From NCBI GenBank assembly GCA_016181265.1, contig JACOZP010000010.1, positions 1 to 39,535 on the forward strand: 39,535 nucleotides of DNA. The letters are read 5' to 3'. The notes below the pieces were generated by a model. That model was not told the origin of the DNA. It was given only the letters and a program-made list of their open reading frames with translations, and made no database searches. Source of the stretch: Candidatus Woesearchaeota archaeon (GTDB lineage: Archaea > Nanobdellota > Nanobdellia > Woesearchaeales > GW2011-AR9). Within the stretch, counting starts at the first letter, position 1. Every line of letters begins with the position of its first letter. The position numbers and the translations under genes are program-made. Below are positions 9,413 to 36,608 of this stretch, one piece after another.

Positions 9413-9482
9413 CTTTTTTCTTTTTGAAACGTATTTTATAAATTTATCACTTCTAAATGATTATCTATCATCTAGGCAAAAC

Positions 9483-9490
9483 CTTTATAA
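9483..9490 (+). promoter_or_regulatory. TATA box of rtcB
   Basis: TTTATAAG lies 18-25 bp before ATG 9508, and no Shine-Dalgarno intervenes. It lies inside the longer open frame that begins at 9457, so it argues for the shorter, leaderless start. Confidence 0.6.
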
Positions 9491-9507
9491 GTACTGTTCT
9501 TTCAGAT

Positions 9508-10995
9508 ATGCCTATGGAACATGTTCAAAAACCTGCCGGCCCACCAGCGGAATTAAAGCGTATTAATGCAGTAACTTGGGAACTCCCCGTGACCTATAAA
9601 GAAGGTATGCGTGTGCCGGCACGAATTCTAGCGAGTGAAGACTTAATCAAGGAAATGGATGCGGGTGTTTTTGACCAAGTGACGAATGTAGCGACGCTTC
9701 CCGGAATTACTGGCTATGCATATTGTATGCCAGATGGGCATTGGGGATATGGTTTTCCGATCGGCGGAGTAGCAGCATTTGATGTTGAGGAAGGAGGAAT
9801 CATCTCTCCTGGTGGAATTGGTTTTGACATTAATTGTGGCATGCGTTTGATGACGACAAATCTGACGATCGATGAAGTTCAACCTAAAATCAAACAGCTA
9901 GTTGATGAGTTATACAAAGCTGTACCAGCAGGCGTCGGGTGTAAAGGCTTTGTTAAAGTTTCTAAAGAAGAATTCAAAGACGTCATGCGTGATGGGGCAC
10001 AATGGTGCTTGAAGAAAGGCTTTGCTACACAACATGATATTGAACATATTGAGGATCAAGGGAAGATTGCATGGGCAGATCCAAGTAAGGTGACAGATAG
10101 AGCAATCAAGCGCGGGTTTGACCAGATCGGAACGTTAGGAAGCGGTAATCACTATCTTGAAATTCAAGTAGTCAAAGAAGAAAATATTTTTGACAAAGAA
10201 GCGGCAAAAGTGATGGGGATCAATAAGCCAGGACAAATCGTGATCATGGTCCACTGCGGTTCACGCGGGTTTGGCCATCAGATCGGTTCTGATTACTTAC
10301 GTATCTTCCTTGATGTGATGCCGAAGTACGGTATAGAAATACGAGATAAAGAGTTAGCGTGTGCCCCGTTTAATTCCCCAGAAGGGCAAGATTATTACAA
10401 AGCGATGGCCTGTGCTGCAAATATGGCGTTTGCCAACAGACAGGTTATTACTCATCGCATCCGTGAGGTCTTTAGTAAAGTTTTTGGACGGACAGCAGAA
10501 GATATGGAGATGAATCTGATCTATGATGTAGCACATAATATCGCTAAATTAGAGAAATATGTTATCGATGGCAAAGAGAAAATGCTCCTCGTACATCGAA
10601 AAGGGGCAACACGGGCATTTGGTCCAGCACGTGTGAAAGATTTACCTCAAGAATATCAAAAAATTGGGCAACCGATCATTCTTGGTGGTTCCATGGAAAC
10701 AGGTTCGTATCTTCTGTTAGGAACTGATGCTTCAGATAAAACGTTTGCTTCAACGGCGCATGGAGCAGGAAGAACAATGAGTCGAGCAGAAGCGATGCGT
10801 ACGATTAATGGGGAACAATTACAACAGACTATGGAAAAACGGGGAATATATGTTCATGCAGTGACGATGAAAGGCTTAGCAGAAGAAGCGGGAAAAGCAT
10901 ACAAAAATATCGATACGGTGGTAGATACACTTGACCAAGCAGGTATCACTCGGCCAGTTGTTGCACTTAAGCCGATCGGTAATGTAAAAGGGTAA
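9508..10995 (+). CDS. rtcB: RNA-splicing ligase RtcB
   Basis: Joins RNA 2',3'-cyclic phosphate ends to 5'-hydroxyl ends using GTP and Mn2+; in archaea it is the tRNA ligase that seals exons after intron removal. Family landmarks are all present: MPDGHWGYGFPIGGVAAFD, SPGGIGFDINCGMR (metal Cys in DINCG, about residue 110), GSGNHYLE, HCGSRG and STAHGAGR. The His of HGAGR (about residue 418) is the guanylate-accepting residue. Length from ATG 9508 is 495 aa, near the usual 480. The frame stays open to 9457, but TATA placement supports 9508. No intein is present, though rtcB is a common intein host in archaea. Confidence 0.97.
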   Translation: MPMEHVQKPAGPPAELKRINAVTWELPVTYKEGMRVPARILASEDLIKEMDAGVFDQVTNVATLPGITGYAYCMPDGHWGYGFPIGGVAAFDVEEGGIISPGGIGFDINCGMRLMTTNLTIDEVQPKIKQLVDELYKAVPAGVGCKGFVKVSKEEFKDVMRDGAQWCLKKGFATQHDIEHIEDQGKIAWADPSKVTDRAIKRGFDQIGTLGSGNHYLEIQVVKEENIFDKEAAKVMGINKPGQIVIMVHCGSRGFGHQIGSDYLRIFLDVMPKYGIEIRDKELACAPFNSPEGQDYYKAMACAANMAFANRQVITHRIREVFSKVFGRTAEDMEMNLIYDVAHNIAKLEKYVIDGKEKMLLVHRKGATRAFGPARVKDLPQEYQKIGQPIILGGSMETGSYLLLGTDASDKTFASTAHGAGRTMSRAEAMRTINGEQLQQTMEKRGIYVHAVTMKGLAEEAGKAYKNIDTVVDTLDQAGITRPVVALKPIGNVKG

Positions 10996-11251
10996 TCTTA
11001 TGGATTGGAAATTTTATATTACACTTCCGGGATTTGATCGTTCTGGCTTAGGATTTGCTGCAGATGTTGACTATCAGATTAATGATTCTCCGACAACACT
11101 GTTGATAGGATGTTTACCGGAAAAAATCTTCTTGCTCAGATAGGACATGTTTGGCAGTGCGGATCGGGAAAAACAGACTGGGGTGTGCATTATTTTCTGT
11201 TTGGTGATCACTGGGAATTAACTGGCGAAGTAAATGGTAGACTTACATTAA

Positions 11252-11304
11252 ATGTGCCAGAAAGCCCGCACTTTAGTGCGAGGATGAATGGCTTTCTAGC
11301 ACAT
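11252..11304. repeat. Palindromic block 1 in the gene after rtcB
   Basis: ATGTGCCAGAAAGC (11252-11265) pairs with GCTTTCTAGCACAT (11291-11304) over 14 bp with one mismatch. A small inner hairpin, CGCACT-TT-AGTGCG, lies at 11268-11281. The block is translated within piece 2 of the broken gene. Confidence 0.65.
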
Positions 11305-11313
11305 TTATGTCAC

Positions 11314-11387
11314 AAAGTGCGGGGTTAAGAAATCGTCTCTTTCAAGCCTCGCTCTTTAGAGCGTGGTGAGACGATTTCCCGCACTTT
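11314..11387. repeat. Palindromic block 2 in the gene after rtcB
   Basis: AAAGTGCGGG (11314-11323) and CCCGCACTTT (11378-11387) are perfect 10-bp inverted ends. Inside, AAATCGTCTC pairs with GAGACGATTT, and CGCTCT-TT-AGAGCG forms the tip. CCCGCACTTT also occurs in direct orientation at 11265-11274 inside block 1. The block carries the TAA at 11326-11328 that interrupts the frame. Confidence 0.7.
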
Positions 11388-11600
11388 TATGACTCAAACA
11401 GGGGGAGATATCCTTGTTCCAAAAAGGGATGCGAATCGTCTTATTAAAGCAAGTTGGGATTTAATATCAGTTCAGAAGAGTTTAGCTGGTTCTTTAGAGA
11501 AATGTATTCTCACACTAGAACAAAAGAAAAGAGGCTTATAACGTTTATTCAGACTCTTTGCTTCGGAATACTCCGTGTTTTAAAAGAGAATACTAACATT

Positions 11601-19886: not shown

Positions 19887-19925
19887 AGAACTCTGCATAA
19901 TTCTAGATTTTATATGCAAAGTTCT
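19887..19925. repeat. Hairpin after the unknown gene at 19255
   Basis: AGAACTCTGCATA (19887-19899) pairs with TATGCAAAGTTCT (19913-19925) over 13 bp with one mismatch and a 13-nt loop. It lies 26 bp past the stop, so it may stabilise or end the transcript. No T-tract follows directly. Confidence 0.5.
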
Positions 19926-19937
19926 TAAGAGAATTTG

Positions 19938-20078
19938 AAATAGTGGGGGATTTTGGCATGATGAATCACGTATACTAAAATTCCCAAATAGCCGAATATT
20001 TAAGGAGGAATTTTATATATGCCATTATTTGTTCGAAATCTATGGCATTTTAGTATAAATTTACCAAAATCACTATTT
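19938..20078. repeat. Large nested palindrome between convergent genes
   Basis: Three blocks pair in nested order: AAATAGTG (19938-19945) with CACTATTT (20071-20078), ATTTTGG (19950-19956) with CCAAAAT (20064-20070), and TATACTAAAAT (19971-19981) with ATTTTAGTATA (20047-20057). A further inner stem, ATGCCAT with ATGGCAT (20019-20025, 20042-20048), closes the tip. The whole spans 141 bp between convergent genes. It could be a MITE remnant or a two-way terminator. Confidence 0.6.
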
Positions 20079-24481: not shown

Positions 24482-25294
24482 TTAGACCCTCAAGTATTCT
24501 TTCCTTTCTTCTTCGGGGAATTTCTCGATGGCATAGCGAAGCATGGTTCGTGGCATTGAGAGATAATGCTCCTTTAGAAATTCCTCCTCTCTGGCTTTAT
24601 CTCTTTTTCCGATTTCACGGAGCATCCAGCCAACTGCTTTATGGATAAGATCATGCTGGTCATGGAGAAGTATTTTTGCGATGTCTAAAGTTTGAGTGGA
24701 TTGTCCTTGACGGATGAAATAGTACGTCGCGATGATGGCGATCCGTCTTTCCCAAAGAACAGTAGAGCGTGCTAATCTTGTGAGGGGTGTTTTATCTTTA
24801 TCGATGAGGTATGCGCCAAGGATTTTATCGGCGGTGAGATCTACTAAATCCCAATTATTGATATATTTGGTATTTTGGAGATAATAATCGACAATGTCTT
24901 CTCTCCTCATTTCATCTGCTTTTTGATATTTTTTAACAAGAATGAGAAGAGCAGTAAGGCGACATTCATGAATTGGATGACAAAGAAGGGTAGTAATTTC
25001 AGCAAGGGGTAAGGAAAAATATTGTTTCGCTATTTTTCGGCACTCTGGCACTGTTATTCCCCAGAATTGGTCACCTTCACCGTACTCTCCTTTTTCTGTT
25101 TTAAACGCGGAGTATTCCACCCCTCTCTTGAGTGGTGGTTTGCGAGCAAACCACTGATTTATTTGTGGAATACTTGCGTGTTCAAAATTAGGCAGGGGAC
25201 CCCCCTGCCTATTTTGACAGAAGCGTAACGCAGTACGTGCTCTTTTCTCATCTTTCAATAACTCTAAAGTTCGGATGATATTTTGCGCATTCAT
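24482..25294 (-). CDS. alkD: DNA alkylation repair protein AlkD, with 38-residue in-frame insertion
   Basis: A HEAT-repeat glycosylase that removes positively charged alkylated bases such as 7-methylguanine. The body matches the family: EKGEYGEGDQFWGITVPECR, NNWDLVDLTADKILG, TVLWERRIAIIATYYFI, HKAVGWMLREIGKRD and MPRTMLRYAIEKFP. Family members usually run ALRFFKTGxGEYGEGD; here 38 residues (CQNRQGGPLPNFEH through KRGVEYSA) sit between RF and FKTEK, encoded by a 114-bp palindromic insert that leaves the frame open. ATG 25294 overlaps the methyltransferase stop as ATGA and is preferred over ATG 25312, implying coupled translation. The insertion lies before the first conserved helix, so the enzyme may still work. 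Confidence 0.9.
   Translation of the reverse strand: MNAQNIIRTLELLKDEKRARTALRFCQNRQGGPLPNFEHASIPQINQWFARKPPLKRGVEYSAFKTEKGEYGEGDQFWGITVPECRKIAKQYFSLPLAEITTLLCHPIHECRLTALLILVKKYQKADEMRREDIVDYYLQNTKYINNWDLVDLTADKILGAYLIDKDKTPLTRLARSTVLWERRIAIIATYYFIRQGQSTQTLDIAKILLHDQHDLIHKAVGWMLREIGKRDKAREEEFLKEHYLSMPRTMLRYAIEKFPEEERKEYLRV
25106..25219. repeat. Palindromic insertion element inside alkD (114 bp, in frame)
   Basis: It is built of two adjacent hairpins. The first pairs TCAAAAT-T-AGGCAGGGG (25182-25198) with CCCCTGCCT-ATTTTGA (25202-25217), 16 bp with one bulged base and a 3-nt loop. The second has outer arms AGTATTCCAC (25111-25120) and GTGGAATACT (25165-25174) around a perfect inner hairpin GTGGTTTGC/GCAAACCAC (25135-25143, 25146-25154). 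It is exactly 38 codons with no stop. No terminal duplication is certain. Confidence 0.8.
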
Positions 25295-25914
25295 TGTTTC
25301 TCCATCCGCCATAAGCCGACGTCAATTCTCTTTACAGGCTTTTCGTGGAAAGCAAATGTTGCTTTGATCGGAAACTCATACTGCCAAAGATGGGTAATTT
25401 TGAAGTGATGGTCTTTGGCTACTGCTTCGACGAATCTCTTTGTTGAGTACTTGTGCATGCTGTAGACGATTTTGCCGATGGTGAACGCTTTTTCGAGAAA
25501 TATCTTGTCGATATGTTCATTCTTTGTGCCAAAAGGGGGATTTTGGACGACACTGTCTGCTTGAACGTCAACTAATTGAATATCGCTGATGATGAATTCT
25601 GCTTTGCCAAGTTCATATTCTTCGGCAAGAACGGCATAATTGTGCTGGCAAATCTGCATCGCTTCGGGGTCTTTATCGACAAAGATAACGTGTTTGGCTC
25701 CAAGAAGAAGGAGACCTAAACCGATGATTCCGGGCCCACAGGCGGCATCAAGAATAGTTTTGTTGACGACTTCTCCAGCCATAGCCATATTCCAGACCCA
25801 CTCAGCAGCGATATGTGAAGGGGTGGGATATTGTTCTAATTGGAAAGAAGGGTTCTCATAATTTTTTAGCTTACTCAAGACAATTTCTAAGTCTTTCTTG
25901 GAACGGATGGACAT
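25291..25914 (-). CDS. METTL5-like rRNA adenine-N6 methyltransferase
   Basis: 207 aa Rossmann-fold SAM methyltransferase. The N-terminal signature FQLEQYPTPSHIAAEW, SAM motif LDAACGPGIIGLGLLLLGA (from residue 56), catalytic NPPFGTKN (125-132) and the later VYSMHKYSTKRFVEAV match eukaryotic METTL5, which methylates the decoding-site adenine A1832 of 18S rRNA. An archaeal 16S target is a reasonable inference. NPPF marks methylation of an exocyclic amino group. METTL5 needs TRMT112 for stability; no partner gene is seen here. The stop overlaps the alkD start (ATGA), so the two are co-transcribed. Confidence 0.92.
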   Translation of the reverse strand: MSIRSKKDLEIVLSKLKNYENPSFQLEQYPTPSHIAAEWVWNMAMAGEVVNKTILDAACGPGIIGLGLLLLGAKHVIFVDKDPEAMQICQHNYAVLAEEYELGKAEFIISDIQLVDVQADSVVQNPPFGTKNEHIDKIFLEKAFTIGKIVYSMHKYSTKRFVEAVAKDHHFKITHLWQYEFPIKATFAFHEKPVKRIDVGLWRMEKQ

Positions 25915-35603: not shown

Positions 35604-36608
35604 GATGCTGTTCAAAGAACGAATGATTTAAACTGACATTCTCTTTTTCTTAGTCAAAAAGTGGGGGTGAGAGGCAGCTATGGAACCAAACACCCCCAAA
35701 ATGTGTTTTGAATGCAAATAAAAACACATTACCAAGAATGGTAAGAAAAAGAATAATGTCCAGAATTTTAAGTGTTTCGATTGCAAAAAGCAATTTACCG
35801 AAACACGCGGAACAGCTTTCTACCGCAAACAATTTGACGCAAAGCAGACACTCCTCGTGTCTGCGCTCCTCAACATCCGAGGAGCAATTAGTTTTCGCAA
35901 TACGGAACAGTTTATTGAGCTCATTTTCTCCAAGAAGAGAGCGCATACAACTTATTATTATCGCCATCTTAGCCTCGAAGGAAACTTCGATGCTGTGCTG
36001 GCACAGCACAAGCTTGATTTTGGTAAAATCTGGCACATTGATGAAGTCTTTACCAAAGTCCGAAAAACACCGGGTGATTTTGGCTACCTTTTCGTCGTCA
36101 CCGATGAAAAGAGCAATCTAATTGCCCTGTATCAATCACAACATCGAGACACGCAATCAGCAAAAATTACATTGCAGATGGCACACAAGAATGCGGGGTT
36201 TGCACCAGACATAATTGTTCATGACGGCTGTCCGATTTATGAACGGGCAGTGACCATTTTTGGCAGAAGTACAAAGCATTGCCAAGCTCATTTTCAAGCC
36301 GAACCATTTCTGCTTGCCAAAGATGGCAAGCAGCTGCTCTACTATTTGAGCAACAATATTGTTGAGCATGTAAATTCGTTTATTCGCTTGTGGTTACATC
36401 ATATGCGAGGCTTTAAGTCGCAAGAGAAAGCGAATGTCTGGTGCAAAATGTTCTTGTCATGCTATAACTTTTGCAAGTCTGCTAGGCTTGTCAGCCTAGC
36501 GGCAGCTCTCCGGAGCTGCTAAATTTTGATTAAAAATAGGGGATGCTTAGGAAAAGGAATGATCTTGTTGAGAAATACTCAAAAATCATTCTCGGATTGA
36601 ACAGCATC
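35604..36608 (+). mobile_element. IS6-like insertion sequence with 8-bp target duplication
   Basis: Imperfect terminal inverted repeats: GATGCTGTTCAAAGAACGAA at the left and, read inward from the right, GATGCTGTTCAATCCGAGAA. Direct 8-bp repeats TGGGTGCG flank it at 35596-35603 and 36617-36624, the duplication size typical of IS6. On the right, ACAGCATC is doubled in tandem (36601-36608, 36609-36616), so the right boundary is 36608 or 36616. Removing the element rejoins ATGTTC-TGGGTGCG-AAGAAAAA. It encodes one broken transposase and is inserted upstream of the gene at 34971. Confidence 0.8.
35680..36522 (+). pseudogene. IS6-like DDE transposase, interrupted by a stop
   Basis: From ATG 35680 the frame has an N-terminal zinc ribbon (MCFECK, then NFKCFDCKKQF), broken by TAA at 35719-35721. 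After the stop the same frame runs to 36522. The DDE core reads WHIDEVFTKVRKTPGDFGYL (Asp), VVTDEKSN, PDIIVHDGCPIYERA (Asp) and a later Glu in NNIVEHVNSF. From the internal start at 35857, 221 aa remain, lacking the ribbon. It could still act with a complete copy elsewhere. Its body is rich in short perfect hairpins (see findings). Confidence 0.8.

Follow-up and report, generated by a model that had tools for sequence, protein, structure and literature searches.

Two hairpin-forming blocks lie side by side within what looks like a protein-coding gene of a Candidatus Woesearchaeota archaeon. What are these blocks, and how did they come to be in a reading frame? The DNA analyzed is a stretch of 39,535 nt (contig JACOZP010000010.1 of assembly GCA_016181265.1), here termed the window. 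A first-pass annotation had described palindromic blocks inside a gene. The blocks are real but are not local palindromes: judged by sequence comparison, the window insert is one copy of a dispersed mobile repeat family that spans an order of uncultured archaea. At this locus, an orphan coding gene has taken up one double-hairpin element directly behind CTTAC, and with it a stop codon.

The interrupted gene

The open reading frame upstream of the host gene is intact and we take it to be rtcB, a name that comes from the earlier annotation rather than from comparison with a family library. The host gene is read in three pieces (Table 1). By hexamer coding score, each piece appears protein-coding in its predicted frame, measured against a mean of 0.42 and a 5th percentile of 0.15 for known coding sequence and −0.62 for wrong frames; the insert, unlike the three gene pieces, scores as non-coding. 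The interrupted gene thus looks real, though an orphan. The uninterrupted homologue that was to be sought did not appear in 58 relatives, in 371 genomes of the phylum or among the plasmids searched, and the protein has no match in Pfam.

The net insert is 147 bp, or 49 codons, and as had been read initially, it preserves the phase of the flanking gene and brings a single in-frame stop codon. Piece 1 differs in frame from pieces 2 and 3, which bears out the frame change placed near 11086-11143, and a run of six A residues lies within that region. An in-phase insert with one stop, together with a separate frame change, can fairly be read as a decaying gene or as a base error at the A-run, in line with the earlier proposal of gene decay or an assembly indel. 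We give almost no credence to the view that hairpins and frame change are assembly errors. The insert is no assembly artefact, since many loci carry its sequence, as do other species whose genomes were assembled independently; only the frame change, which falls in the stretch that holds the six-A run, may be such an error.

Table 1. Coordinates of features in the window
Feature	Position	Strand	Evidence
rtcB (presumed), intact 512-aa ORF, upstream of host gene	9457-10995	+	ORF list
Host gene piece 1, ATG at 11000, ends at TAG 11141-11143	11000-11143	+	translation; hexamer coding score 0.38
Host gene piece 2, runs to insert	11110-11246	+	translation; coding score 0.24
AAAAAA run, in stretch of frame change from piece 1 to piece 2	11121-11126	+	sequence, frames
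Left flanking repeat AC (within cttAC)	11245-11246	+	24-copy comparison; outer-copy table
Hairpin A, bulge on 5′ arm, closed by AC/GT	11245-11310	+	fold; covariation in 16 copies; IS200-type left-end likeness
Apical hairpin of hairpin A, CGCACTTTAGTGCG, then GATGAATGGC downstream	11267-11280	+	
Centre GT, reverse complement of both flanking AC repeats	11309-11310	+	45 outer copies; same rule in nested units
Hairpin B, irregularity on 3′ arm	11309-11393	+	fold; covariation
TAA, sole in-frame stop brought by insert	11326-11328	+	translation
Apical hairpin of hairpin B, CGCTCTTTAGAGCG	11350-11363	+	
Right flanking repeat AC (element end TATGAC)	11392-11393	+	24-copy comparison; outer-copy table
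Host gene piece 3, frame of piece 2, stop TAA 11539-11541	11394-11541	+	translation; coding score 0.28
alkD, otherwise intact	24482-25312	−	Pfam DNA_alkylation
Second double-hairpin family, in frame, about 38 aa, near alkD N-terminus	25104-25217	−	repeat copies, folds; 7-relative alignment

Structure of the insert

The two adjoining hairpin blocks are borne out by the predicted fold: the 161-nt region has a minimum free energy of −72.4 kcal/mol, versus −36.9 ± 3.8 kcal/mol for dinucleotide shuffles (z = −9.4; 0/200). The blocks, first measured as 53 and 74 bp, in fact extend further, and hairpins A and B overlap at the common GT centre. The bulge usually sits on the 5′ arm in hairpin A, and on the 3′ arm in hairpin B.

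Copies and distribution

A search of the window genome found 35 pieces of the element at about 12 places. Stretches that amount to about 380 kb of this 1.0-Mb genome were retrieved for analysis. Twenty-four distinct copies were compared and their flanks are unrelated. The copies fetched have a common outer hairpin pair (the outer copies referred to below), with additional sequence situated exactly between modules. In 84,980 species genomes, exact matches to the right end are found only in MAGs titled Ca. Woesearchaeota or Nanoarchaeota. A covariance model built from 16 copies hits 33 of the 242 genomes searched in the order. In a phylum sample of 279 genomes it hits 37, of which 35 belong to the order; the other two hits, both weak, are in the same class.

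One genome (G163) has five identical full-length copies of 139 bp with exact ends and unrelated flanks, and two others (G146 and G137) have near-identical copy sets. Among congeners, copies are missing at syntenic places or are found elsewhere around the same genes; the flanks have diverged, and these syntenic regions of related species yielded no clean empty site orthologous to an outer copy. Several copies are intergenic or directly follow stop codons. Only 1-2 nt separate the 3′ end of a tRNA-Thr gene (L040 562-633, minus strand; about position 40061 of G000:C10) from an outer copy, whose left end faces the gene. Many contig ends of another genome, G003 (L058, L070, L115, L116), carry 26 bp of hairpin A, CGCACTTTAGTGCGAGGATGAATGGC, which suggests a high-copy IS-like element that breaks the assembly.

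Nested units

A scan of 419 kb revealed 16 immediately adjacent hairpin pairs, compared with none in one first-order Markov control. Ten of the 16 display exactly the 5′/3′ bulge pattern, and nearly all are within outer copies. Excision of the nested pairs in silico leaves outer units of near-constant length, about 140-152 bp; sister copies are thus sequence-exact empty sites for the nested units. At one locus (L151) a pair is found inside a nested pair, i.e. at a third level, and across several genera the small units are found in identical slots. One small double hairpin, of the form CAC..GTG..CAC, stands alone outside any outer element (L089 5572-5638; about position 65574 of G000:C14); the other bulged pairs from the scan, unlike this unit, are inside outer copies.

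Centre and flanking repeats

In 10 of 10 nested events, a direct repeat of 1-4 nt flanks the unit and the centre is its reverse complement. The repeat/centre pairs are AC/GT, C/G, G/C (twice), TG/CA (twice), CG/CG, TTC/GAA, GCTC/GAGC and CGC/GCG; in two of the ten events the terminal repeat base, though able to pair, stays unpaired when hairpin A takes its minimum-energy fold. The outer copies follow suit: in all 45 that were readable, centre and right end are reverse complements of each other. Outer flanks fall into two classes, AC/GT/AC, present in 17 genomes, and AT/AT/AT, present in 11. The left flank was read by eye, not blind, with the aligned start as reference and one row (L208) unreadable; it is of the matching class, save that its first base differs in two copies (L111 and L249). 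Automatic calls of left, centre and right were mixed: in one, the fold could slide by 1-2 nt, and in a second, where closure by one pair was not accepted, 15 of the 17 copies scored agree. The probability of the two-class agreement arising by chance is 1/C(28,11) = 4.7e-8 if genomes are independent, which they are not fully (G447, G298 and other congeners are non-independent).

Bases that precede the outer repeat are mostly T, and give TTAC or TTAT, a TTAY-like flank. At the level of sequence, the ten nested events and the 45 outer copies read display the pattern of a guide that is complementary to its target site and co-varies with it. The complementarity of centre and flanks suggests that the target may be found by DNA-DNA base-pairing. 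In the literature accessible to search, mostly outside subscription journals, neither this rule for centre and flanks nor the recursive nesting of one unit within its own kind was found described, and a search on palindromes of Woesearchaeota returned nothing on point.

Stem covariation

Across 16 outer units, 97.7% of stem cells are paired and 22 of 50 stem pairs are altered on both sides. In the alignment of these units (A1), 90 cells are altered on both sides versus nine on one side only (0/500 shuffles), and G-U intermediates are very few. The stem changes, almost always two-sided, are unlike the usual G-U drift in RNA. That intermediate states are so rare is unusual; either copying from one arm to the other or selection for the fold could account for it.

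Proposed mechanism of mobility

Sequence similarity links the core of hairpin A to the left end of a local IS200-type element. That element, in genome G438 (locus L223), has the left end GCCAGAAA..CTTTAG..GATGAATGGC, and the covariance model matches its left and right ends with E = 4e-4 and 1e-5, respectively. A similar motif is situated 130-280 nt upstream of tnpA in six of 42 Y1 loci, where 0.18 are expected; the enrichment is partly post hoc, as the motif was relaxed after a stricter pattern gave one left-end-like match.

Bulged hairpins, a centre able to pair with either end, a TTAY-like target and an IS200-like left end favour a non-autonomous IS200/IS605-type element. We consider it probable that the repeat is a single-strand-type element that follows IS200/IS605 logic, has a double-hairpin unit of the class seen in palindrome-associated transposable elements (PATEs) and REPINs, and is mobilized in trans. 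From the sequence patterns we infer an HUH enzyme, mobilization in trans, a single-stranded DNA intermediate and a guide role for the centre. The proposed element would have the form XY-[hairpin A]-Y′X′-[hairpin B]-XY, and its folded strand would be cut and joined by an HUH-type transposase supplied in trans. Central Y′X′ would act as a guide by pairing both with the right-end XY and with the XY of the target; with element and target thus matched, the inserted element would have XY on either side. Larger units would also receive small ones of like build, which would produce the recursive nesting.

The element is too short to encode TnpA (Y1, HUH) and is non-coding. Pfam Y1_Tnp is absent from four element-bearing genomes (G001, G002, G014 and G031) and from two near-complete ones, G008 (98%, 6 contigs) and G018 (96%, 2 contigs). 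Within the family, Y1 presence shows no association with the element (7/16 versus 6/20; Fisher p = 0.49). Presence of the Y1 transposase does not track the element, and any mobilizing enzyme is thus putative.

Alternative explanations

That transposase presence does not track the element would be expected if no dedicated transposase were involved and copies arose by template switching at replication. XY microhomology would prime the copying of a donor hairpin pair, and switching from arm to arm would keep stems paired. Stem changes that are nearly all two-sided are what hairpin-templated correction gives, and direct repeats of variable length also fit. Bulges, however, persist at fixed places where correction between arms should erase them; the five identical 139-bp copies, with exact ends at unrelated sites, and the TTAY-like target look directed by an enzyme, and small units at the same slots in several genera also speak against template switching. 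On balance it seems rather unlikely, though it is the strongest competitor of the transposon reading. Conventional DDE transposition fares far worse. A MITE with a 2-bp target duplication would account for the AC or AT repeats that flank outer copies, but not for nested repeats that range from 1 to 4 nt; the ends share no clear terminal inverted repeat, and a centre that tracks the flank is not required of a DDE element. We regard this origin as very improbable.

Perhaps the fold is selected as RNA, in a structured element or a bidirectional terminator or regulatory element situated mostly at gene ends. The strong covariation would agree with this, as would the copies between genes or right after stop codons and the one adjacent to tRNA-Thr. 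The window copy, however, is inside a coding gene, Rfam has no match at E ≤ 1, and syntenic loci differ among congeners. In addition, G-U intermediates are scarce in the stems, and whole hairpin pairs nested together with flanking repeats are unexpected for an RNA motif. An RNA role as the explanation is improbable, less so than a DDE-type MITE.

Other repeats in the window

The first-pass annotation had likened the two blocks to an insert in alkD. The likeness holds in kind, both being double hairpins, but not in family, since the alkD insert belongs to a different one. Copies of this second family are present in the window genome (L184, L185), in G002 (L186-L189) and at L091 14837; in some of them other hairpin pairs take the place of the left hairpin, or nested units are present. 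At the start of the window, positions 1-90 share a palindromic sequence, seen by eye in reverse complement, with the end of contig G000:C19 (L096, about 19900-20000), and this is probably a repeat where the assembly breaks. A transposase-like gene at 35680-36522 (plus strand) matches Pfam DDE_Tnp_IS240 and has an apparent stop near the N-terminus of its frame.

Similarities to known elements

Among known elements the nearest are the PATEs of haloarchaea, with their SMR-A insertions, the REPINs of bacteria and the double-hairpin elements of organelles; within archaea, the PATEs and SMR-A repeats of Haloquadratum come closest. In the available text on Haloquadratum walsbyi (PMC3119063), PATEs are IS605-related, have no transposase and carry near-terminal palindromes; there are 52-bp forms that consist of termini only, and a 4-5 bp targeting sequence is at the 5′ end. 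SMR-A elements, about 110 bp in length, insert into PATE palindromes and are said to do so without target duplication (PMC3119063). The woesearchaeal element is likewise archaeal and transposase-free, with palindromes akin to IS605/IS200-type ends (one close case, the pattern partly post hoc). It also has near-identical copies, no coding score, and a TTAC/TTAT-like 5′ flank in the position of a targeting oligonucleotide. PATEs have strain-specific empty sites that keep the targeting sequence; for the woesearchaeal element, copies are present or absent at syntenic places whose flanks have diverged. Unlike PATEs as there described, the element is built of two hairpins that abut each other, their bulges mirrored, and its centre is complementary to its flanks. 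The units nested in it share the double-hairpin build and reach a third level, unlike PATE/SMR-A, and each is flanked by repeats of 1-4 nt, unlike SMR-A. The PATE host is of a different archaeal phylum, and the likeness is one of description, not of sequence comparison.

REP/BIME and REPIN elements, associated with TnpA_REP (RAYT), also have two inverted imperfect palindromes as the mobile unit and a bulge in the stem, comparable to mirrored hairpins A and B; the accounts available report that complementarity aids the choice of cleavage site, that some dimers are 1-2 bp apart and that some copies are within genes or longer palindromes (PMC3116915, PMC8266576, PMC3733652). TnpA_REP uses a foot tetranucleotide together with the stem bulge (PMC8266576). 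The conserved GTAG/CGTC foot of REPINs (PMC3733652, PMC3116915) is not found here: the outer feet are GT or AT, and nested feet (GT, G, C, CA, CG, GAA, GCG and GAGC) vary with the flank. Recursive nesting also sets the element apart from REPINs, as does the lack of a linked tnpA, and G001, G002, G014 and G031 have no Y1_Tnp match that could represent a RAYT.

Among TnpA_Y1 subclasses, IS200 alone has been observed in archaea, according to the text available (PMC6006769). IS608 inserts 3′ of TTAC at a site set by base-pairing of guide and target (PMC5934647). The hairpin at each end, the TTAC-like target and the core of hairpin A are IS608/IS200-IS605-like features, but there is no transposase gene here. 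Furthermore, IS608 has a guide 5′ of each hairpin, whereas one centre would serve both hairpins here, and a target repeat on both sides, as is present here, is not described in the accessible part of that account (PMC5934647).

Organellar double-hairpin elements (Paquin et al., 2000, cited in PMC2670323) are adjacent mobile hairpins that insert into one another. Organellar palindromes, with Volvox as an example, are short and present in many copies, are inserted into each other and often have TTTA loops (PMC2670323). These are eukaryotic, and the text of that source at hand describes no target-complementary centre; the resemblance carries no evidence of homology. Rickettsia palindromic elements (RPEs) are found in frame in protein genes, as in alkD; they differ in being bacterial and of other sequence, and RPE-4 and RPE-6 are REPs of the CGTC/GTAG type (PMC3733652).

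Implications

The elements may, as a tentative and less probable proposal, represent a distinct archaeal class of single-strand mobile DNA that consists of two hairpins only. One centre would be a rewritable guide for both ends and the target, new specificities would come about by 1-4 changed bases, and the class would amplify into its own kind. The element offers precise, testable cleavage substrates for DPANN transposases. If the centre is truly a guide, there would be many minimal single-stranded DNA elements, without a protein of their own, that have been naturally reprogrammed in target, much as IS608 has been retargeted by engineering. One build rule would then link PATEs, SMR-A, REPINs and organellar double-hairpin elements, and in-frame palindromic insertions in archaeal genes, such as that in alkD, would be explained.
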